Below, in pieces: positions 4,093-16,477 of a stretch of 53,295 bases of DNA (the stretch's first letter is position 1; every line of letters starts with the position of its first letter). This DNA is from Verrucomicrobiota bacterium. Its GTDB lineage: Bacteria; Verrucomicrobiota; Verrucomicrobiia; Limisphaerales; SXTU01. The stretch is from positions 1 to 53,295 of the forward strand of contig VHDH01000011.1 of assembly GCA_016871445.1 (NCBI GenBank), in the 5' to 3' direction. The translations under genes were made by a program, and so were the position numbers. The notes beneath the pieces were generated by a model. It was given only the letters and a program-made list of their open reading frames with translations, made no database searches and had not been told where the DNA came from.

Positions 4093-5313
4093 ATGAAACG
4101 CCCGTGCTTTTTTGCGGTCACCGCGCTTGCGCACTTCCTCTTCACTGGCTTCGCCAAAGCCGGCCCGGGTGAACAGACCCGCATGGTCGCCGCGCAGCCG
4201 AGCTGGATTGTCGCCACGCCGCAGGTCGAGCTGGCCCTGACCAAGCTCGGCGGGCACATGGCTCCGGTCACTTTCTTCCGCGACTCCGCCCGGCCCGTGC
4301 AGCCTTACCACATCAGCCCGTGGCAGGGAGAGAAGCACGCCTACCCGGTGCCGGTGCTGGTGCCGTTGCGCGGCGATTTCTTCTGCCTGCCTTTCGGCGG
4401 CAACGGCGAGCCGGTCAACGGCGAGAAGCACCCGCCCCACGGCGAGTCCGCCGGTTCGCCATGGCAACACGTCGCCACGAAGAAAGCCGGCGACGTGACC
4501 ACGCTCACCACGGTCATCAAGACCAAGGTCCGCCCCGGCACGGTCACGAAGGAGCTTTCCCTCGTGGACGGGCACAACGTCGTCTATTCCCGCCACGTCA
4601 TCGAGGGCTTCGCGGGCCGAACACCCATCGGCCACCACGCCACGCTCGCGATGCCGGAGCAGGAGGGCGCATTTCGCCTCAAGACCAGCCCGTTCAAATT
4701 CGGAATGGTCGCGCCGGGCTTGTTCAGCGATCCTAAGCAGGCCGAGTATCAGGCCTTGCTAGTAGGCGGCCGCTTTACCGAGCTGGACAAGGTGCCGCTC
4801 GCGTGGCGCGGCCCGGCCCACACCGACCTCGCGGCGCTGCCCGCCCGCAAAGGCCACGCCGACCTCGTGCTCCTGCTGAACGAGCCGGGCGACCTCGCGT
4901 GGGCCACCGCCACGCGGGGCGACGAAGGCTGGCTGTGGTTTGCGCTCAAAGATCCGGCCGTGCTCAACGGCACGCTGCTCTGGCTGGAGAACCACGGCCG
5001 CCACGGCCTGCCGTGGTTCGGCCGCAACAACTGCGTCGGCATCGAAGACATCACGGGCCACTGGGCCGACGGCCTCGCCGCATCGCTCGCACCGAACGTG
5101 CTCACGCGGGAAGGCATTGCAACGACCATCGAGTTGAGTGCCGCGCGCTCGACAGCGGTGAACTATATTCAGGGTGTCGTGCGCGTGCCGGCCGGCTTTC
5201 TCGAGGTGAAAACGCTCGAGTTCGCGCCCGGCCAAGTCAACTTCATCGCCACCACCGGCCAGCGCGTAACCGCACCGGTGCGGCACGAGTTCCTGAAGAC
5301 CGGCAGGCTGTAA
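4093..5313 (+). CDS. Secreted protein, possible galactose-mutarotase-like fold
   Basis: A 406-residue protein starting at ATG 4093 with a Sec signal peptide (MKRPCFFAVTALAHFLFTGFAKA, cut to read as two parts: basic MKRP then a hydrophobic core). The body is beta-rich. HGLPWFGRNNCVGIED followed by GHWADGL near residues 310-332 resembles the histidine and acidic motifs of aldose-1-epimerase/galactose-mutarotase-like proteins found beside carbohydrate genes. I recognise the general type but not a named family. A sugar-binding or epimerase role is inference. It ends 23 bases before the DUF1549/DUF1553 gene, so the two are probably co-transcribed. Another frame is open through its 3' part from 4803, but the composition and signal peptide support this frame. 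Confidence 0.72.
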   Translation: MKRPCFFAVTALAHFLFTGFAKAGPGEQTRMVAAQPSWIVATPQVELALTKLGGHMAPVTFFRDSARPVQPYHISPWQGEKHAYPVPVLVPLRGDFFCLPFGGNGEPVNGEKHPPHGESAGSPWQHVATKKAGDVTTLTTVIKTKVRPGTVTKELSLVDGHNVVYSRHVIEGFAGRTPIGHHATLAMPEQEGAFRLKTSPFKFGMVAPGLFSDPKQAEYQALLVGGRFTELDKVPLAWRGPAHTDLAALPARKGHADLVLLLNEPGDLAWATATRGDEGWLWFALKDPAVLNGTLLWLENHGRHGLPWFGRNNCVGIEDITGHWADGLAASLAPNVLTREGIATTIELSAARSTAVNYIQGVVRVPAGFLEVKTLEFAPGQVNFIATTGQRVTAPVRHEFLKTGRL

Positions 5314-5336
5314 ACTGGTACCAGCAGCATCCGCGC

Positions 5337-8300
5337 ATGAACCGAACCTTTCATCGCCGAAGCCGTGAAGCAGGCGGAATGTTCCTGCTCGCGTTGGCCG
5401 GCCTTCTGCTGGGCTGGGCGGCTTCGGCTGCTAATCTCACGCCCGCGCAAAACGAGTTCTTCGAGAAGCACATCCGCCCCGTGCTCGCTGCCGAGTGCTA
5501 TGAATGCCATTCCACGGCGAAGAAGAAGGGCGGTCTCGCGCTCGACACGCGGAATGGGTTGCTTAAAGGCGGCGAGTCTGGTCCCGCGCTTGCACCCGGA
5601 GAGCCTGAAGCCAGCCTGTTGCTGCGAGTCCTCCGTCACTCGCATCCAAAGCTGAGGATGCCCAAGAACGGCGCCAAACTGGACGCCCGCACTATAGCGA
5701 ACTTCGCTGAGTGGATTCGCCAAGGCGCGCCCGACCCGCGCACCGGTTCAGCCACCGCCCCGCATTCGGAGGCTCCAGCCTCATGGACGGACACGCTGGC
5801 ATTTCGCCGCCAATGGTGGAGCTTCCAACCGCTTTCACAGCCGACAGTGCCCACGCCAAAGAACGCCGCGTGGAGTGCCAATGCCATTGATCGCTTCTTG
5901 CTCACCGCGATGGAACAGCGCGGCCTTGCGCCCGGGCCAGCGGCGGATCCACGCACGATTTTCCGTCGCCTGACCTTCGCGCTGACCGGTCTCCCGCCAA
6001 AGTCGGAAGAGGTAGAGGCGTTCGTTAAGGAGTGGGAACTGCCAACAGCCAGGAGACAATTGATTATAGAGCGGCTCACAGACCGTCTCCTCGCTTCCCC
6101 CGCCTTCGCCGAGCGCTGGGCGAGACATTGGCTCGACCTTGTGCGCTATGCCGAGACGCACGGGTCTGAGGGCGACCCCGAAATCCCACAGGCCTGGCGC
6201 TACCGCGACTACGTCATTCGCGCCTTCGCCGCCGATGTACCCGCCGACCAACTCATCCGCGAGCATATCGCGGGCGACTTGCTTTCACCCGCGCAGACTC
6301 GTTGGAATAAAACCGACGCGCTGAACGAATCCCGCCTTGGGCTAGCACACTTCCGCCTCGTCGAACACGGCTTTCAACCAGTGGACACGCTCGACGACCA
6401 AGTCAAAGCGGTCGACAGCCAGATTGACGTTTTGGCGAAAGCTTTCCAGGGGCTTACCATTTCCTGCGCCCGCTGCCACGACCACAAGTTTGACCCCATT
6501 AGCCAGCGTGACTACACGGCACTGTTCGGCGTGCTCGCCTCGGTTCGCCCGGCACAAGTGCAACTCGACGCGCCAGAGGTACTCAACAAAAACCGCGCCG
6601 ACCTCATCGCGCTAAAAGCCCAAATCAAATCTGCGCTCGCCGACAGTTGGCGCGACGCCATCCCGCCACTTATCGTTCAGCTCACGCGCGGCTCCAGCGC
6701 CGACCCGCTGCTCGGCTCGCTCCACCAACGCCTCGCCGCCGCCGAGCAGGAACTCGCCGCCCTCGAAGCCACCGCCCGCACAAAAGCTCTCGCCAGCCGT
6801 GCCGGCGGCCTCCAGTCGCCGCCCATCGCACCCAGCACGCCCGAACGACGACTGGAAATCACGGCCCCGCCTCAACCCATCTCCCGCTGGTCGTTCGACA
6901 CCGATGCGCGCGACCAACTCGGCAACCGCCACGGCGAACTGCTCGGCGGCGCGACGCTCCGCAATGGCCGCCTCGTCCTCGATGGCAAGGAAGCCCACCT
7001 TCGCAGCGCGCTGCTTGGCCGCGAGTTGCGCGAGAAGACGCTCGAAGCGTGGGTCACGCTCGCGAACTTCGACCAAGCCGGCGGCGGAGTGGTCACGGTC
7101 GAGACCAGCAACGGCGCGGTTTTCGATGCCATTGTCTTCGCCGAGAAGGAGCCTCGGAAATGGGTCAACGGCAGCGACTTCTTCCGTCGCTCGCGCAATC
7201 TCGACGGCCCCGCCGAGTCCGCGAAGCCCGACGAACTGATTCACGTCGCCGTCAGCTATCGCGCGGACGGCAGCGTTGCCTTCTTCCGCAACGGCCAGCC
7301 CTACGCCGCGCCGCACAAGCCGGAAAGTCCGCCGGTCGTTTTTCCCACGGACGCGCGCGTGTTGCTTGGCCGCCGTCATACGGGTGGCGGACGGGCTCAT
7401 TTTGCCGGTGAGATCGACGAGGCGCGGCTTTACGACCGCGCACTATCCCCAGCGGAAATCGCGGCATCGTTCCGCACTGGACCCGTGGGTGTCAGCGCTG
7501 CAGACATTGCGAAGGCGATGACGCCCGAGCAAACCGCCCGCCATGCGCAGCTTACGGCGAGCGCGAAGCAACTCCGGGCTGAACTCGCTGCGAAGTCTCC
7601 CACCAGCAGCGAAGCCATCGCTGCCGCGCTCAAAGACGCGGCGAACAATCCCGACAATCCGCTGCACGCGTGGGCCAAGCTCGGACAACTCGACGACGCG
7701 GCCTTCGCGCGTGGTTGGGTCGAATTGGAACAAGCTTGGCGGGCGCGGCTTACCAGCGTCCGCGAGCACAACGCGAAGTTTACGCCCGCTTGGGATTTAG
7801 CGAAGCCCGACGAGGCTGCCCAATGGTTCGCGGAGGGCAGTGCCTTTTTGGGGAGCGCGACGGCGCGCATTATTCCGGGCGATTTCGCCCTAGAACCCGA
7901 AGGAGAACGCGTCCTAAAGGGCCTGCTACCTGCTGGCATTTCTTCGCATCTCATCTCCGAGAAGCATGGAGGCCTGCTCACATCGCCGCGTTTCCGCATC
8001 ACGACGGACAACCTCAGCGTGCGCGCGGCCGGCGGCAAGGGCGCAACGGTCCGACTCATCGTAGACAACTATCCACTGGGCGTGAACGCGGTCTTCCCAA
8101 AGGCCGCATTAAACCGTGACGATGCTGGCTGGTTACGACTCGACACTGCGTATCGCAAGGACTCATGGGCCTACCTTGAATTTGGCACGGCAGATGACCT
8201 CACGCGCAGGTTCGGTAATAGCGATGCTGAGGGCCGCAGTTGGTTCTTCGCTGATCGGGTGGTCTCACACGACGCGCCCGCCCCACCGCGAGATGAGCCA

Positions 8301-9530
8301 CAGGCGCTCGTAGCACTGCTTGCTCGGGCCGACGGATCCAAGGCACCGGTCAATGCCGCCACACTCGCGCGGCATTACGCCACCACGCTCGCTGCCGCCG
8401 TACAAGCATGGCGGGACGGTTCGCTGGATGAACCGCACCGGGCACTGCTCGACGCGTGCCTCCGACGCGGCCTGCTGCCAACTTCCGTAAAAGCCCTGCC
8501 AACCGTCGCGCCGCTCATCGCCGAGTATCGACGGCGGGAGGCCGAAATTTCCGCTCCGCGTCGTGCGCCTGGAGTCATCGAAGGCACGGCCTTCGACGCG
8601 CCGATGTTTCCACGCGGTGACCACACCCGGCCCGGCGAACCCGTCCGGCGCGGCTATCTCGAAGTTCTCCACCTAGGAGGCGAGGCAAGCAGTGTCAAAC
8701 CCTCTCTGACCGCCGGTGCAAGCGGTCGACTTGAACTCGCCAACGCTATCGCCTCTCCGCGCAATCCGCTGACCGCGCGCGTGATGGTAAACCGCGTATG
8801 GCACCACCTCTTCGGGCGCGGCCTCGTGGCGACGGTGGACAATTTCGGCCGGCTCGGCGACCAGCCGACACATCCCGAACTGCTCGACCACCTCGCGTCA
8901 CAATTCATCGCCGACGGCTGGTCGTTCAAGACGCTCATCCGCCGACTTGTCACCACGCAAGCCTACCAACTTGCCAGCGAACCGACTGCCGCCGCCCGCG
9001 AGCGCGACGCATCCAACGAAGTCCTCTCGCACTTCCGCGTCCGCCGACTCGAAGCCGAGGCCATACGCGATACATTGCTCACCGTCAGCGGGCGGCTCGA
9101 GCCGATGCAGTTTGGCCCGCCCGTTGGCATCGGTGACCGTACTCGCCGCAGCATTTACCTTAACGTGCGACGCAACAACCTCAGTCCGTTCCTTGAAATC
9201 TTCGATGCGCCAAAACCCTTCACCACCCTTGGTCGCCGGGACACGACCAACGTTCCCGCGCAGTCGCTCGCCTTCCTCAACGACCCGTTTGTTATCGAGG
9301 CGGCAAAGAACTGGGCGGAGCTGCTGTTGCGGCAGTCGCCGGGGGCCGGTGTGGATGCGCGGCTCCGGCAGCTTTACCTCGCCGCATTCGCCCGGCCGCC
9401 GTCGGCCGATGAGCTGGCGAAGTCGCGTACCTATCTTGCCACGCTGGGCACCGACGCCGAAGACCCGCGCGTGTGGCAGGACTTCATTCAATCGCTGTTC
9501 AATTTGAAAGAGTTCATCTATGTCCGCTGA
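5337..9530 (+). CDS. Secreted PSCyt1-DUF1549-LamG-DUF1553 protein
   Basis: A 1397-residue protein. ATG 5337 (or ATG 5379, 14 codons on) is chosen because a signal peptide with hydrophobic [15 protein letters not shown] follows; the open frame continues upstream to 4803 only as an overlap with the previous gene. Order: signal peptide; PSCyt1 heme-like motif CYECH (54-58); DUF1549 (about 185-420) with [11 protein letters not shown] (C377-H381); a LamG/concanavalin-like domain (about 515-700, ending in [15 protein letters not shown]); a linker with helical segments; DUF1553 (about 1107-1370) with the [22 protein letters not shown] block. Such proteins are frequent in planctomycetes and Verrucomicrobiota and are linked by co-occurrence to polysaccharide use. 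Heme binding is predicted from CxxCH only. Confidence 0.9.
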
Positions 9531-10944
9531 ACCCTGCCGCTACCCGTCCCGCCGCACGATGCTCCGCCGCACATCGCTCGGTTTCGGCTCGCTTGCCTTG
9601 GCGGGCCTGATGCAAGACCACGCCTCGGGCGCGGGTCTACCGCCGGGTCAACCGCACTTCGCCTCGCGCGCCAAACGCGTAATTTTTGCTTACATGAGTG
9701 GCGGCGTGTCGCATGTGGACTCGCTGGACCCCAAACCAGAACTGATCAAGCGCCACGGCCAACCCATGCCCGTGCCGGTGCGCCCGACGGTCTTTAATAA
9801 CAATGGCAACATCATGGCCAGCCCATGGGAAGCTCGACCGCGCGGCCAAAGCGGCGTGGTGATGACCGACCTATTTCCAAAGCTCGCTGCGCTGGCCGAC
9901 GACCTTGCGGTCATTCGCAGCATGACCAGCAAGGTCAACGAGCACGCGCAGGGCAATTACGCTTTTCACACCGGCTTTCCTTTCATGGGCCATCCCAGCG
10001 CGGGCGCATGGATGAGCTACGGTCTGGGCGTAGAGAATGAAAACCTGCCGGGCTTCGTCGTGCTGCAAAGTGGTGGCGCGGTGGCCCCGCACGGAGGAGT
10101 CGGCCTCTACAGCAACGGCTACCTGCCCGCACAACACCAGGCCAGTATCATCCGCGTAGATGGAAATCCGGCTCTGCCCAATATCAAGCCCCGCGAGGCT
10201 GATGCCGCCCAGCGGGCGCGCATGGACTTCATCCGCTCACTCGATGAACCGTTCGCGCAGGCCGTCGGCGACTCCGCCATCGAAGGGGCCATCCGGAACT
10301 ACGAGACCGCCTACCGAATGCAGTCCGCCGTGCCCGAGTTGTGCAACATTTCTGGCGAAAGCGAGGCCACGCGAAAACTTTACGGCCTCGACTCGCCGCA
10401 CAAGCAGTGCGCCAGCTACGGGATGCAATGTCTTGTCGCACGGAGGCTTATCGAACGCGGCGTTCGCTTCGTTGAGCTCAGCTGCCTCAACGAAGGCATT
10501 GGCGCGGGCAACGCGCCTAACCCGTGGGACCAGCACGGTAAGATTAAGGAGGGCCATGGCGCGATGGCCCACCAAGTGGATACTGGTCTCGCAGGACTGC
10601 TTACCGACCTAAAGGCCCGCGGCCTGCTCGACGAAACGCTCGTGCTTTTCAGCGGCGAGTTCGGGCGCACGCCGTTCTCCCAAGGCAGCGATGGGCGCGA
10701 CCACAATCCCTTTGGCTTCAGCTTGTGGCTGGCGGGCGGCGGCGTGCGTGGCGGTACGGCTTACGGCGCAACGGACGAACTAGGTTACTTCGCCGTCGAG
10801 GACAAGTGCGAGATCTACGACCTTTACGCCACTATGTTGCACTTGCTGGGCATGGATCACGAGAAGCTCACCTACCGCTTCGGCGGCCGCGACTTCCGCC
10901 TAACGGACGTGCACGGGCATGTGATCCGGGAAATCCTGGCGTGA
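9520..10944 (+). CDS. DUF1501 family protein, partner of the upstream PSD protein
   Basis: A 474-residue protein. ATG 9520 lies 11 bases inside the end of the DUF1549/DUF1553 gene, so translation is probably coupled. The N-terminus [20 protein letters not shown] is a Tat-like signal. DUF1501 blocks: [49 protein letters not shown], and [20 protein letters not shown] followed by DVHGHV. Its overall organisation matches the copy at 2431. A stable pair of an exported cytochrome-like protein and an exported alkaline-phosphatase-fold protein is the expected family arrangement; the reaction is unknown. Confidence 0.93.
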
Positions 10945-10989: not shown

Positions 10990-11940
10990 TCACCTAGCCG
11001 ACTGATAAAGCTTAGCGAGGTCCAGCAGTAATGGCTCCAGCTTTGCGAAATACTCTGGCTCCGGCAACTCGGTCTTACGCTCACGCAGCTTGCCGATGGC
11101 AAGTTCCAGCTCATCCCGCTTCGCGCGCACACCCGGCGGGAGTTTTAGTTCCTGCTCACTCCGCACAAGCACGAACTGATGGGCGCGCAGGCCGTCCACG
11201 GTCGCGCCGTCCTTGGCCTTCTTCACTGCGCGCACGCCCCGGAACCAGTCCGGCGGCGTGCCAAGGCCGTCGCCGTTGTCGTCCAGCAACGGATGCTCCG
11301 TTGCGAGCCGGCCCTCAGTCTCATAAAACTCCGCAACCCGACTAGCGGCGAAGAGGTACGCCTCCAGCAGCGAGGTTTGCCCATCCTTGTCGAGGTCAGC
11401 CTCCGGGCTGCCAATGGCAGCGGCAAAGTAGCCACCGAGACGCGTGTAGTTCACTTCCTGTCCGCTGCGCGTCGCGGTCACGACAACTCGGCCGGCGGCC
11501 GAGAGTTTGTTCACGAACGGCCCGCTGGCCGAAGCGCAGTTCACGATGGCAACGGGACGCTGGAACGGCTTAAGCCATTCCGAAAACTCAGCCGCGCCCA
11601 AGTCCGGGCCGCGCAGGTTAAACTTGGCTTCCTTATTATCGAACGTGCCATGGCCAAGCAGCACGAACCAGAGTTCGCCGGGGCCGGACTTCGGCTCGGC
11701 TTCCAGTGCAGCCTTGAAACGCGCGAGGTCGTTCGTCTCCGCCGACTGCCAGCCGATGGGCACAAGCTTAGCCTGCGCCGTGGCGGCGACCTGCTCCAGC
11801 TTCGCTGCCGCCTCGGTGAATTGCCGCCCCAAATCCGCTTCGCCCAACGCACCAACGAGCACGAACACCGTGGTTTTGTCAGCGGTTTGCGCGGCGACCA
11901 GTCGCACGGTGAGCAGAAAAACTGAAAGGAGGAGCTTCAC
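10990..11940 (-). CDS. Secreted caspase/legumain-like cysteine peptidase (clan CD)
   Basis: A 316-residue protein read from GTG 11940, which overlaps the TGA of the upstream gene as GTGA. A longer frame begins at 12036, but its first 32 codons lie inside the upstream gene and precede the signal peptide (KLLLSVFLLTVRLVAAQ). The order beta strand, FVLLGHGTFD, beta strand, VAIVNCASASGPF gives a His97/Cys135 pair as in C13/C14 clan CD peptidases (GHG then xxCxS). A DLDKDGQTSLLEAYLFA segment and DDNGDGLGTP resemble EF-hand calcium loops. Activity and substrate are inferred, not shown. The coupling to the vWA membrane protein suggests that they act together at the envelope. Confidence 0.78.
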   Translation of the reverse strand: MKLLLSVFLLTVRLVAAQTADKTTVFVLVGALGEADLGRQFTEAAAKLEQVAATAQAKLVPIGWQSAETNDLARFKAALEAEPKSGPGELWFVLLGHGTFDNKEAKFNLRGPDLGAAEFSEWLKPFQRPVAIVNCASASGPFVNKLSAAGRVVVTATRSGQEVNYTRLGGYFAAAIGSPEADLDKDGQTSLLEAYLFAASRVAEFYETEGRLATEHPLLDDNGDGLGTPPDWFRGVRAVKKAKDGATVDGLRAHQFVLVRSEQELKLPPGVRAKRDELELAIGKLRERKTELPEPEYFAKLEPLLLDLAKLYQSAR

Positions 11941-14321
11941 GGCAAACCCCTCCTGCGCCGCAAACCCCATTCCGCAATGAAGCACAGCAGCGCGAACAGG
12001 AATACCACCGGCTGATGCCACAGGGGCATCGTCCACGCTTCAGTGACGGGGGCTTTCAGACTAGGCAGGCGCGCTGCGAAGCCGCCGAGTGACCCCATGT
12101 CAACTACCTCCCCGCCGGTTTGCTTGGCGATGGTTTCGAGCAACGCGCGGTTCGGTTTGAGCGAACGAAACTCCTCGGCTGCCAGATCGGTCGTCCAGCC
12201 CGCCACGGCACGACCCGCCTCTGCGCCGACGTTGTTCGTGGCGACGGCCTCGACGTGGTAGCCGCCCGTCTCGCGCGGCACGAACGTCGCAATGTAGAGT
12301 CCCGGCTCCGTCGTGGACGGCTCAGCCGGCAGACGAATCGCGGGCGCGTTACTTACGCCGCCGAGGACGGGCTGCACGTGGAGCATCACGGTGGCGTTGT
12401 CCAGCGGTAGGTATTTCGAATCACGCACGCGCACGCGCAATTCAACCGCCTGATTCGCATCGCCCTTCTTGGTTTGCGCAGCGAGTTCGACCTTGTGCGG
12501 CACATCGGCCACGAGCCAGCGCGTGAGCTGCCGCCAAGCCTTCGCCATATCCGTGGACATCTCTGGGGCGCGGAAACCCCAGCGCCAGACGTCCCCCACG
12601 GTCACAACCGCCGAACGTCCGTGACCGAAGCGCTGCACGGCCACGGCCGGCAGTGCGCGGCCGTTGGCATCCGTCACAGTGGCGATGCCGCTCGCTCCAG
12701 GCTTGAGGTCGCGCACTTCATTGAGCAGATCGAAGCCCGGCATTGCGGCGAGGCGCGTCTTCTCCTCGCTTTCCGTAGGCCGCAAGCGCGCCCAAGATTG
12801 CAACCAACCCTCGCGCGTGAGGCCAAGCCGGAGGTTCTCGCGCGGCGTGTCGTCCGGCGCGCGGTCAAGATAAACCGGCAACAAATCGCCGATCGGCGTA
12901 CGAAGATAACCGCCCTCGTGAAAACTCTCTGCGCCGCCCAACATGAGAAAACCACCACCACGTTCGCCCACGAACTTTTGCACAAGCGATTTCTGATCCG
13001 CTGTGAAAAACTCGGCCTCCAAGTCATCCACGATAACTGCGTGGTAGGCGAAAAGTTCCTCGGCAGTCGTTGGGAAACCCTTCACCAATTCGTCTGGATC
13101 CTTAGTGTTCAAACGGATGAGCACAGGCTGGTCGTAACGCTGGATTTCCTCCTTCGACTGGTTGCCAAAACCGCGGAAGAGCGGGTTGCTCGACTCGCCT
13201 GCGCGCCCGCGAAAGTCGAACTTTGGCTCGCGCTTCGCGATGCGGATGAGGCCCATCAACTCGACCTGGTCGTCCTCGGTCAGCGCGCGGTTGAGGAACT
13301 TAAACTCCCAGTTCGGCCGCCCGCTGACGTAGAGGATGCGGAACGGCCCGCGCCCCCGGTCCACGGCTAAAACGCGCGTGTTGTTTGCAAGCGTGGCTTC
13401 GGCGGAGTTTTTCGCGTCTGTAAATTGCCCAGCCTCACCCTGTGCACCGACGCGCACGCGGTAGAAGGAAATTCCCCGCTGCTCCGGCTTGAGCTGGAAA
13501 CGGAACGAGAGCGTCTCGCCGTCCTGCCTGACGCGCACCGTCTGTTGTCCGACGACCTTGCCGGCGGAGTCAAGCAACTCAGCCTTTACGTCCGCGTCCA
13601 CGTAACCGCTTGCGATTGCATCAGCCTGAATCGTGACCGGCGCATCTTCGAAGCTGGTCTGCGTTGCTGTGACGTGAGCGAGCGCGATATCTCGCTCGGC
13701 ATCTTCGCGACCGATGACAACGGGATAAATCGGCGGCAGGCCCTTCAGGTCGGGCAGTTCGCCCGCGATATCCGTGGCGTTGCCGTCCGTGAGCAGCACG
13801 ACGCCGGCGACAGGGCGATTGCCGAGGCGTTCCTTCAACGTGGTCAGCGCACTGCCGATGGCGGAAGCGCGCCCGTCGAAGCTGAGTTCCGTGAAGTCCG
13901 TGCTGGGTTGGAGTCGGGAGTCAAAGACGTAGCCCCGCACCTCGAAGTTTTCACGAAGCTTCGAGAGCCAGTCCGCGCTCTTGCCCACGAGCACATCGCG
14001 GAGAAATTCGCCCCGGCTTTGGGAGTTGCCCCGGTCGTGGATTTGCATGCCCTGACTATTATCTGCGACGACCGCGAGCAAGTTCGCGCCGGGTTTCGCA
14101 CGCTGGCCAGTCCACAGGGGCTCTAGCAAGCAGAGCGCGAGCGCAGCGAAACCGAGCACCTTAAGCAACACGCAGACGGCACGTAGTCCACGGTCCGCCT
14201 CTGCCCGAGCATAACTCCAAATCAGCACCACGAGGCCGAAACCCGCCAGTGCCAGCACCGGCACCAGCCAGTCGCGCCCGGAAAAGATAAGGGAGGCGAG
14301 GCTCAAATTCAGAGGGGGCAA
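11937..14321 (-). CDS. Membrane-anchored vWA / class I GATase-like protein
   Basis: A 794-residue protein. The TTG start at 14321 is supported by GGAG six bases upstream and an in-frame stop just before it. Two N-terminal membrane segments (about residues 18-36 and 47-66) precede a vWA-like domain with DNSQGM near residue 90 (a partial MIDAS) and VVLLTDGNATD near 180. Ig-like beta regions follow. A GATase1-like domain (VIVDDLEAEFF, then GGGFLMLGGAESFHEGGY) lies near 430-480, and a C-terminal membrane segment (PVVFLFALLCFIAEW) ends in RRRR. Such proteins normally sit in MoxR-DUF58-vWA clusters of this phylum group, but no MoxR or DUF58 gene is visible here. The role is unknown; a scaffold or sensor at the membrane is inference. 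Confidence 0.82.
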   Translation of the reverse strand: MPPLNLSLASLIFSGRDWLVPVLALAGFGLVVLIWSYARAEADRGLRAVCVLLKVLGFAALALCLLEPLWTGQRAKPGANLLAVVADNSQGMQIHDRGNSQSRGEFLRDVLVGKSADWLSKLRENFEVRGYVFDSRLQPSTDFTELSFDGRASAIGSALTTLKERLGNRPVAGVVLLTDGNATDIAGELPDLKGLPPIYPVVIGREDAERDIALAHVTATQTSFEDAPVTIQADAIASGYVDADVKAELLDSAGKVVGQQTVRVRQDGETLSFRFQLKPEQRGISFYRVRVGAQGEAGQFTDAKNSAEATLANNTRVLAVDRGRGPFRILYVSGRPNWEFKFLNRALTEDDQVELMGLIRIAKREPKFDFRGRAGESSNPLFRGFGNQSKEEIQRYDQPVLIRLNTKDPDELVKGFPTTAEELFAYHAVIVDDLEAEFFTADQKSLVQKFVGERGGGFLMLGGAESFHEGGYLRTPIGDLLPVYLDRAPDDTPRENLRLGLTREGWLQSWARLRPTESEEKTRLAAMPGFDLLNEVRDLKPGASGIATVTDANGRALPAVAVQRFGHGRSAVVTVGDVWRWGFRAPEMSTDMAKAWRQLTRWLVADVPHKVELAAQTKKGDANQAVELRVRVRDSKYLPLDNATVMLHVQPVLGGVSNAPAIRLPAEPSTTEPGLYIATFVPRETGGYHVEAVATNNVGAEAGRAVAGWTTDLAAEEFRSLKPNRALLETIAKQTGGEVVDMGSLGGFAARLPSLKAPVTEAWTMPLWHQPVVFLFALLCFIAEWGLRRRRGLP

Positions 14322-14641: not shown

Positions 14642-15766
14642 TCACTTCGCGGGCTTGAGAAAGTGCTCGAAGAAGGCGACAAGTGCGGCGTTTGACTCGT
14701 CGTTTGGCGAGTGGTCGTTTCGGTTGGTCATGGCGACTCGATGCTTTACCCCGAGCAAGTCATTTACGGCAATGGTGTGGTTGAGCGGAATCCAACGGCT
14801 CGGCGGATCCTCGCTACCGCCGCTTACTAGGAACGGGCGCGGGGCCATTAACGCATGGACTTCGTGGAGGTCGCGGCCCGTCTCAATCATTGTCTTGTAA
14901 GCCCCGGTGCGCGGGCTGTCGGGACGGATGAGGCCGGGCTTGCGCGTGAACTGCGGATCGCGACCCAGATACCAAGGCTCCCAGTAGTTCACACTGCCGC
15001 GCGTTTCGTCGAAAACGATGCCCGGGTCGCTCCACGCAGCGGCGGCGAATTTGTCGTAAAAACACGAGGCGAACATCGCCCATTTGCCGCCGTAACTGTG
15101 GCCGGCCACACCGATGCGTTTAGGGTCAACCTGCGGCAGGCTCGCCAACGCGTGCCAGCAATTCGCGCCGATGTAGCCCAGAAAAGACAGTGGCTGCCAG
15201 AATTCGCGGCCTGGTTCGGGCTTGCGGGCGTCACCGCCGGGCGAGCCGATGCTGAGAGAGACGAAGCCCTTGCGCGTGAGCTGCGCGGCAAAGTCGCGAC
15301 CCAGATTCTTGCCGAGACCGATGCTCGTCTCCGGCTCGTAAAAAGGAACTAGCACAGCCGGGAACGGCCCATTGCCGTCGGGGATAAGCAGCCATGCCTC
15401 GCCAAAGACGTTGGGGGCAACCTCAACCCGGACGCGGTGCTGGGTAAAGTTGTCACGTTTGCTTGAATCAAGGTATTCAACCTTTGGCCTTTGCAACAAA
15501 GGCGGCCAAGCCCCCATAAGGTTATGCCATTGCGCGAGTATTTCAGCGCGGCGGCGCGGCCAGTCGGCGGCAGATTTCACGCGCGAACCGTCGTTGAAGA
15601 GCAACGGCGAACGATAGCTGCCGAGCTGGCCGGAGAATTCTCTCGGCGGCGTGAAGTGGGGAGAGATGAGCTGCGTCGCAGAGTCAGCAGCAAGCGAGAC
15701 AGCTACGCCAAACGTGAGCTGCAAAACGATTTGTGAACCGTAACTAGCAACCAGTGGCAGGCGCAT
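14642..15766 (-). CDS. Secreted alpha/beta hydrolase, acetylxylan-esterase/dienelactone-hydrolase-like
   Basis: A 374-residue protein from ATG 15766 (an in-frame TTG lies three codons upstream). A Sec signal peptide (MRLPLVAS, then QLTFGVAVSLAA) is followed by an alpha/beta hydrolase. The nucleophile elbow is GVAGHSYGGKW and a late NDHSPNDE supplies a candidate catalytic His; the acidic residue probably lies in GGSEDPPSRW. The SPGGDARKPEPGREFWQPLSFLG region resembles the lid of large secreted esterases near polysaccharide genes. Deacetylation of plant glycans is a plausible role, but the substrate is inferred. It is a single gene. Confidence 0.78.
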   Translation of the reverse strand: MRLPLVASYGSQIVLQLTFGVAVSLAADSATQLISPHFTPPREFSGQLGSYRSPLLFNDGSRVKSAADWPRRRAEILAQWHNLMGAWPPLLQRPKVEYLDSSKRDNFTQHRVRVEVAPNVFGEAWLLIPDGNGPFPAVLVPFYEPETSIGLGKNLGRDFAAQLTRKGFVSLSIGSPGGDARKPEPGREFWQPLSFLGYIGANCWHALASLPQVDPKRIGVAGHSYGGKWAMFASCFYDKFAAAAWSDPGIVFDETRGSVNYWEPWYLGRDPQFTRKPGLIRPDSPRTGAYKTMIETGRDLHEVHALMAPRPFLVSGGSEDPPSRWIPLNHTIAVNDLLGVKHRVAMTNRNDHSPNDESNAALVAFFEHFLKPAK

Positions 15767-15919
15767 GGCAAACAATTGGCATTGTTAATAGAGCGATAAA
15801 GGACATTCCAACTTTGATAACCACGGCAGTTCTCAACCGCCTAAAACCACCCGCACAACAGGCCAATGCCATATCGCAATCCAAGAGCTCACGAACATAT
15901 CATCCAACGCACGGGACGG

Positions 15920-16477
15920 TTAACCCTCTTTTGACGCAGCGGGCGAGGATTCTTTAGCACCAGTCTCTGGCGAAGTAGCAATTCCTTGGTCTGGCTGCTT
16001 CCCGTCCAACTGCCAAGTAAGCAAAAACATCAGGCCCACGCCGATGCAAATGCCGCTGTCGGCGACGTTGAAGGCAGGAAATCCGGCCTCCTTCCCGCTC
16101 CGCGTCTGGACATAAAAATAGATGAAGTCCACCACGTGCTTATGAACGATCCGGTCGATGATATTACCCACGATGCCGCCAAACATCAGGCCCAGCGCCC
16201 ATTGGCCGAGCCGCTGCTCGGCACCGAAGTGGTGCCGCGAAAGAAAGAGCGCCAGCAGCGCCAGCAAGGCGACGATGGTGAGCAACTCATTATTGTTCTG
16301 AAACATGCTCCACGCCGCACCGGTATTGCCCCAATGAACAAACTTGAAGAAACCTTCGATCACGACCCGTTCCTGCGCGTAACCAAGGAATTGCAACACG
16401 GCAAATTTCGTGAGCTGATCCAGCGCTAATGTCACGCCGGCGACCAGCGCCAGCCGACGATTGGGAGTCAAGGTCAT
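15920..16477 (-). CDS. lspA: Signal peptidase II (lipoprotein signal peptidase)
   Basis: A 185-residue inner-membrane aspartyl peptidase that removes the signal peptide of diacylglyceryl-prolipoproteins. ATG 16477. It shows the N-terminal helix with LALDQLTKF, the GFFKFVHWGNTGAAWSMF block, GGIVGNIIDRIVHKHVVDFIYF and FNVADSGICIG. The conserved aspartates D108, D117 and D140 in these blocks contain the catalytic pair. Four membrane segments can be seen. The C-terminal 25 residues after WQLDGKQ are a polar tail longer than in E. coli. Lipobox-bearing proteins such as the DUF192 protein at 27194 are expected substrates. There is no clear Shine-Dalgarno sequence. Confidence 0.95.
   Translation of the reverse strand: MTLTPNRRLALVAGVTLALDQLTKFAVLQFLGYAQERVVIEGFFKFVHWGNTGAAWSMFQNNNELLTIVALLALLALFLSRHHFGAEQRLGQWALGLMFGGIVGNIIDRIVHKHVVDFIYFYVQTRSGKEAGFPAFNVADSGICIGVGLMFLLTWQLDGKQPDQGIATSPETGAKESSPAASKEG

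Follow-up and report, generated by a model that had tools for sequence, protein, structure and literature searches.

We analyzed a 53,295-nucleotide stretch of DNA from a Verrucomicrobiota bacterium of the order Limisphaerales (contig VHDH01000011.1, assembly GCA_016871445.1), hereafter called the window, with a focus on two overlapping genes encoding the proteins P0001 (family F2) and P0002 (family F1). An earlier reading of this DNA, the original prediction, had described a caspase-like peptidase with an H97/C135 dyad and EF-hand-like loops, coupled through a GTGA overlap to a three-segment vWA/GATase membrane protein, and had proposed that the two form a calcium-responsive proteolytic module. 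The overlap was found as claimed:

10990..11940, minus strand: P0001 (F2), 316 amino acids, GTG start, a probably exported legumain-fold protein
11937..14321, minus strand: P0002 (F1), 794 amino acids, with two N-terminal transmembrane (TM) segments, a vWA fold, an Ig-like domain, a GATase1-like fold, a second Ig-like domain, the end of the vWA fold and a C-terminal TM segment
11937..11940, minus strand: GTGA overlap, the start of P0001 lying on the stop codon of P0002

The same overlap of −4 occurs at 17 of 74 homologous loci. The real start of P0002 is possibly a TTG at 14306, since close relatives align with it only from residue 6 onward.

An AlphaFold2 model of P0001 built from 79 sequences reached a predicted local distance difference test (pLDDT) of 92.4. 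The 50 Foldseek matches listed are titled as caspase, metacaspase, MALT1, legumain, CHAT, Raptor or GPI transamidase entries or as GSU0716, the last of which is also matched by the C13 profile. Legumain 5lua ranked first in a second structural comparison (Z score 18.7 over 191 residues, 2.3 Å). In the model P0001 thus has the clan CD caspase/hemoglobinase fold and is of the legumain/caspase type, and the pLDDT and the legumain score support a caspase-like fold, as claimed before. Profile comparisons with hhalign matched a profile of 25 family members to 16 bacterial C13/metacaspase-like domains at E 2.9e-15 and a narrower P0001 profile to the same set at E 4.1e-11, in identical register; used as a profile, the C13 set picks up metacaspases and legumains among solved structures. 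By these alignments P0001 is homologous to the bacterial C13/metacaspase-like domains. The C13 set was drawn from 22 PF01650 domains, of which 18 passed a regular expression requiring a Cys and 16 of the 22 were aligned; its invariant Cys is therefore partly a result of selection, and the 4 rejected domains show a Cys there by eye.

Pfam and NCBIfam yielded nothing for P0001 up to E 10. P0001 stays below the curated PF01650 score, the PF01650 search of its own genome gave no match, and among the 79 family members only 3 reach E 1 with PF01650, the best value being 0.028. Searched against the sequences of solved structures, P0001 and profile A2 gave a best E of only 0.96. Canonical PF01650 proteins are scarce around the source lineage, with 2 of 113 relatives and 17 of 288 genomes of the phylum having one. 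The N-terminus of P0001 holds a hydrophobic segment resembling a signal peptide, and the protein is probably exported.

Three codons of P0001 bear on catalysis:

11650..11652, minus strand: H97, the invariant clan CD histidine position
11536..11538, minus strand: C135, the nucleophile proposed earlier, not conserved in the family
11530..11532, minus strand: S137, aligned with the catalytic Cys of C13 proteins and metacaspases

Conservation was followed in 117 homologues. Eighty of these are named loci retrieved through patterns over both acidic loops of P0001 (see below); they are the best 80 of 420 confirmed loci, are biased to close relatives and take their phyla from record titles. The other 37 were not motif-selected, and some genomes are present twice via two sources (L080 is a contig of G006). 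In the model H97 lies just past strand 90-95 and C135 just past strand 130-134, so that the clan CD order noted in the original prediction is present. H97 occurs in 117/117 homologues and aligns with the C13 catalytic His, as for the histidine after strand 3 in clan CD. Position 135 is occupied by C in 53 sequences, T in 54, G in 6, S in 3 and A in 1, and this is the Cys-richest column of the alignment; the family lacks the invariant Cys after strand 4 of an active clan CD peptidase. No homologue has C at position 136 or 137. At position 137, 110 sequences have S and the other 7 have A, G or P; S139 is present in 116. Removal of sequences at 90% identity left 91, with C135 in 37, T135 in 45, S137 in 84 and H97 in 91.

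The C13 catalytic Cys meets S137 in three profile comparisons (the 25-member profile, the narrower profile and a single C13 domain), C135 meets the Asp/Glu two positions before that Cys, and S139-G140 meets the Ser-Gly that follows it. C135 was rejected as the nucleophile of the family because of its limited conservation (53/117) and these three comparisons; with T, G, S or A at position 135 in 64 of 117 sequences, the H97/C135 dyad is not supported as a mechanism shared by the family. In an alternative register, D/N134 would be the Asp of a D-x-C motif and the nucleophile would be at 136. No homologue has a Cys there either (0/117), so that the lack of a family-wide Cys does not depend on the register.

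Five of 13 divergent homologues (L175, L177, L179, L180 and L182; 787-908 amino acids) carry a P0001-like domain N-terminal to transglutaminase-type proteins, with Transglut_core in 5/5 and DUF3857 in 3/5; inspection by eye shows no catalytic Cys in these fusions and the loss of the His in L180. In the seven divergent homologues that were aligned, position 137 is A or T by eye (7/7), and L171 has lost the His.

P0001 also has two acidic loops with invariant positions:

11362..11397, minus strand: EF-hand-type loop DLDKDGQTSLLE, residues 182-193, acidic positions invariant
11257..11283, minus strand: second calcium-loop-like stretch DDNGDGLGT, residues 220-228, D221 and D224 invariant

The first loop fits the EF-hand pattern DxDxDGxxSxxE, and when the window is translated in all six frames (106,586 residues), DLDKDGQTSLLE alone satisfies a relaxed form of an EF-hand pattern. 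D182, D184, D186, S190 and E193, as well as D221 and D224, are kept in 117/117 homologues and likewise in 37/37 of those not motif-selected, in line with the EF-hand-like loops described earlier. PF13202 matches at E 1 or better were obtained for 20 of the 79 family members (best 0.028). Since some C13 relatives carry an EF-like loop at the equivalent place, the calcium-type loop may be ancient.

Three hydrophobic segments were located in P0002, two near the N-terminus and one at the C-terminus, which confirms the three-segment membrane protein described before and repeats the pattern of BatA. Its parts were placed as follows:

14049..14063, minus strand: degenerate metal ion-dependent adhesion site (MIDAS), residues 87-91 (DNSQG), from conservation in 83 sequences
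12504..13349, minus strand: GATase1-like fold, residues 325-606, from PF07090 and structure 3rht (Z 23.3)
12036..12098, minus strand: C-terminal piece that seemingly completes a discontinuous vWA fold, residues 742-762, from vWA-type matches and model elements

The model of P0002 has a pLDDT of 84.0 and a predicted template modelling score of 0.69. The Foldseek list for the whole protein, headed by beta-galactosidases, was set aside (template modelling scores of 0.2 or less) and comparisons were made at the domain level. Structural matches of vWA type begin at residues 72-79 and finish at 752-762, and the model places a helix at 742-754 and a strand at 760-766; the vWA fold thus seems to be discontinuous, running from about 72 to 762. 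It resembles BatB 3ibs (Z 15.2) and 4jdu (Z 15.6), and no Pfam VWA model is among the families matched at E 0.01 in 62 P0002 members. By conservation the MIDAS is mostly degenerate: D87 and S89 are kept in 82 of 83 sequences and D179 in 83, as befits the MIDAS-like site of the original prediction, but the third position is G in 59, S in 22 and T in 2. P0002 exceeds the cut-off for GATase1_like (PF07090), the family is matched at an E of 0.01 or lower by 62/62 aligned homologues, and 3rht is the best match of this part (residues 328-606). Positions 454-472 hold no conserved Cys; the commonest site is 466, with C in 6/83 (counted among the up to 7 commonest residues per position). The charges in the TM1-TM2 loop and in the RRRR at the C-terminus suggest that the body of P0002 lies outside, in the periplasm.

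We next consider how widely the two genes travel together. P0001 matches were found in 62 of 116 genomes (the source genome and its relatives): in 53 a P0002 orthologue immediately precedes P0001 in the same orientation, in 4 the orthologue is on another contig and in 5 it is lacking (two complete P0001 sequences, two fragments and one weak match), while P0002 occurs without P0001 in two genomes. Among the named contigs, 76 extend more than 300 bases upstream of P0001, and 74 of these show P0002 there in the same orientation. These counts support a conserved pairing with the vWA/GATase membrane protein. The presence of F2 agrees with that of F1 in 109/116 genomes and with that of a third family, F3, in 101/116 (raw counts, uncorrected for kinship). 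The closest named contig with the pair, titled as a Limisphaerales metagenome-assembled genome, has 79% identity in P0001. The pair recurs on contigs titled Verrucomicrobiota and Planctomycetota, some of these record titles being plainly wrong. A profile match at E 0.001 was found in 23 of 288 genomes of the phylum, 14 of them with E <1e-90, and the P0001 family is patchy outside the order. The adjacency in 53 of 62 genomes and the recurrence under both phylum titles mark the pair as old. A DUF433 gene (L054 11222-11584) is inserted between P0002 and P0001 in G009, and a match to a P0002 paralogue (G010:C12, ~72294-73415) lies inside an open reading frame given as 24,472 amino acids long, a possible giant gene.

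In relatives the pair stands at the 3' end of a cluster with the order MoxR-DUF58-BatA-F3-P0002-P0001, in which MoxR (AAA_3), DUF58 and BatA were assigned by Pfam. DUF58, BatA, F3 and P0002 occur together in 40 of the 50 loci whose upstream flank exceeds 9 kb. Where the flank is long enough, F3 is present in 63/69, BatA in 46/52 and MoxR in 29/48 loci, many of those without MoxR ending before its site. At the family level, MoxR, DUF58 and BatA therefore share one cluster with the pair, as in a Bat/MoxR-vWA operon. F3 (L079 10433-14715) is large and without a clear Pfam family, with a weak DUF4175 match and, in its second part, DUF6376; it is one gene in many relatives and two in the source genome and several others.

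The original prediction had noted that the usual MoxR and DUF58 genes are absent, which is true of the window; both are encoded on a separate contig of the same genome (C36), together with DUF4159, BatA and a two-gene F3. The operon of the source genome is split, which explains why the window does not contain them. C36 continues 274 bases beyond the last F3 match into the possible start of another gene, its flank after F3 and the window flank before P0002 do not match each other, and homology of the window to relatives resumes near the start of P0002. As the flanks differ, the split looks genuine, with the pair kept as a unit. An assembly artefact was rejected as the reason for the missing genes on the grounds of these unmatched flanks and of G081, which is also split although it is a single contig (the pair lies at 3.43 Mb, F3 at 3.90 Mb and BatA at 0.61 Mb); a chimeric contig is improbable, though conceivable. 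G030, G050, G054 and G063 have F3/BatA on other contigs or far from the pair. F3 and BatA are retained at other sites in all five split genomes that are 90% complete or more. Of eight genomes searched for both, F3 was found in 6 (not in G110 or G029) and a BatA-type match in 8, that of G029 at only 26-35% identity. Breaks in the operon, as in G081, leave the pair intact.

In two genomes of the same genus, a ParE-type toxin gene with a small gene ahead of it is inserted at the joint between F3 and P0002 (L054 8326-8849, L058 7942-8465). The joint that holds this insertion is the point at which the operon of the source genome splits. Within the window, P0002 is preceded by an esterase-like alpha/beta hydrolase gene (14642-15775, weak glucuronyl esterase match) and then lspA (15920-16477). 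On the other side, 4803-10944 encodes a PSCyt1/DUF1549/DUF1553 protein and then a DUF1501 protein, a frequent pair in the Planctomycetes-Verrucomicrobia-Chlamydiae (PVC) group.

Overall, we favor, with a probability of roughly 0.58, the reading that P0001 is a periplasmic, probably inactive pseudo-peptidase of legumain/caspase fold with P0002 as its partner in the inner membrane, the two genes closing a MoxR-DUF58-BatA-F3-P0002-P0001 cluster that occurs in Verrucomicrobiota and Planctomycetota. We take a pseudo-peptidase as the default because a family-wide Cys is missing and position 137 is S in 110/117 and A, G or P in 7, and also because the seven divergent homologues have A or T there and L171 lacks the His. 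Calcium-responsive proteolysis, as originally proposed, is not the best default since position 135 differs from C in 64/117 and the nucleophile aligns to S137; a probably non-catalytic calcium-loop subunit of a MoxR-vWA system fits better. P0001 would be exported, fold around Ca2+ in the periplasm and dock onto P0002 at its periplasmic vWA/GATase/Ig portion, and its former substrate groove would hold peptide or protein clients instead of cutting them. By analogy with MoxR-vWA pairs that have been studied, cytosolic MoxR and DUF58 would supply ATP-driven remodelling, which BatA, F3 and P0002 would relay through the membrane to whatever client P0001 holds. Several observations weigh against the pseudo-peptidase reading. 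An invariant H97 and an S137 conserved to 94% are stricter than a scaffold seems to need; C135 is present in 9/9 own-genus sequences, and so may matter in the source lineage, and in 21 of the 37 sequences that were not motif-selected; the register of the nucleophile rests on sequence profiles; L102 and L124 hold P0001 with other upstream genes and no P0002; and G110, a split genome (88% complete), has the pair and BatA with F3 not found.

The strict conservation of H97 (117/117), S137 (110/117) and S139 (116/117), together with the alignment of the C13 Cys to S137, could instead mean that P0001 is catalytically active, as a hydrolase or transpeptidase whose Ser-His dyad joins H97 to S137 or S139; it would then be a calcium-gated serine-type clan CD enzyme. 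This is the main alternative, yet an unlikely one, as 7/117 sequences have A, G or P at position 137, 7/7 aligned divergent homologues have A or T there with no His in L171, and HS/YS substitutions are described as proteolytically inactivating two trypanosome metacaspases (PMC6426788). We consider it still less likely that such an enzyme, using H97 with S137, works in the periplasm under an ATP-dependent MoxR-vWA machine across PVC bacteria. We know of no described serine-type calcium-gated clan CD enzyme. The model of the original prediction, adapted to the variation, would make P0001 a cysteine peptidase where C135 is present, the source genus included, and a pseudo-enzyme otherwise. The location of C135 directly after strand 130-134 and its presence in 37 of 91 sequences that are not near-copies and in 9/9 of the own genus speak for it, but three profile comparisons set the nucleophile two residues later and T is as common as C at this position (54 and 53 of 117), leaving it a slim chance. 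Slimmer again is the prospect that the pair is an independent two-gene system, often beside MoxR-BatA genes yet functionally unrelated to them: the pair is apart from F3 in the window, G030, G081, G050, G054 and G063, and G110 has the pair with F3 not found, but 5/5 split genomes of at least 90% completeness keep F3 and BatA elsewhere and the presence of F2 and F3 is concordant in 101/116 genomes.

Among known systems, P0001 is closest to legumain and Peptidase_C13 (clan CD, PF01650), with which it shares the top solved fold, profile homology and the placement of the EF-like loop in some C13 domains, whereas its family has no family-wide catalytic Cys and is barely matched by PF01650. Pseudo-orthocaspases and the HS/YS metacaspases of trypanosomes (PMC6426788) also combine a caspase-type fold with lost catalytic residues; P0001 differs from those described there by its invariant His, a Ser at the aligned nucleophile site, its exported appearance and its Bat-type operon. 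The main text of that paper does not contain the words Planctomycetes, Verrucomicrobia or legumain. MoxR-vWA ternary conflict systems likewise contain MoxR, vWA and caspase-fold components, and about 70% of the caspase domains in effector position are said to be inactive (PMC7159879). The P0001/P0002 operon is unlike the systems presented there in being of Bat type and membrane/periplasmic, and the words DUF58 and BatA are absent from the main text of the article. The Bat (aerotolerance) operon has MoxR, DUF58 and BatA/BatB, and the P0002 vWA resembles BatB, but the PVC cluster adds F3, a GATase1-like fold within the vWA protein, and P0001. In Leptospira biflexa, removing the complete set of bat genes is reported to leave growth and oxidative tolerance unchanged (PMC3557215). 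P0002 residues 328-606 resemble the GATase1_like (PF07090) protein of Planctomyces limnophilus solved as 3rht, except that in P0002 the fold is embedded in a membrane vWA protein and lacks a conserved Cys at 454-472. Literature searches of open-licence articles in PMC listed none that, judged by title and the beginning of the abstract, deals with the P0001/P0002 pair.

MoxR-BatA clusters are common, and their function is poorly understood. The PVC version adds a probably exported legumain-fold protein without a Pfam or NCBIfam match, and P0001 would offer a soluble handle for identifying the client of the MoxR-BatA machine. The large natural set of C, T, G, S and A variants at a single position, in most cases within this operon, may serve to examine whether a protease fold has turned into a binding module.

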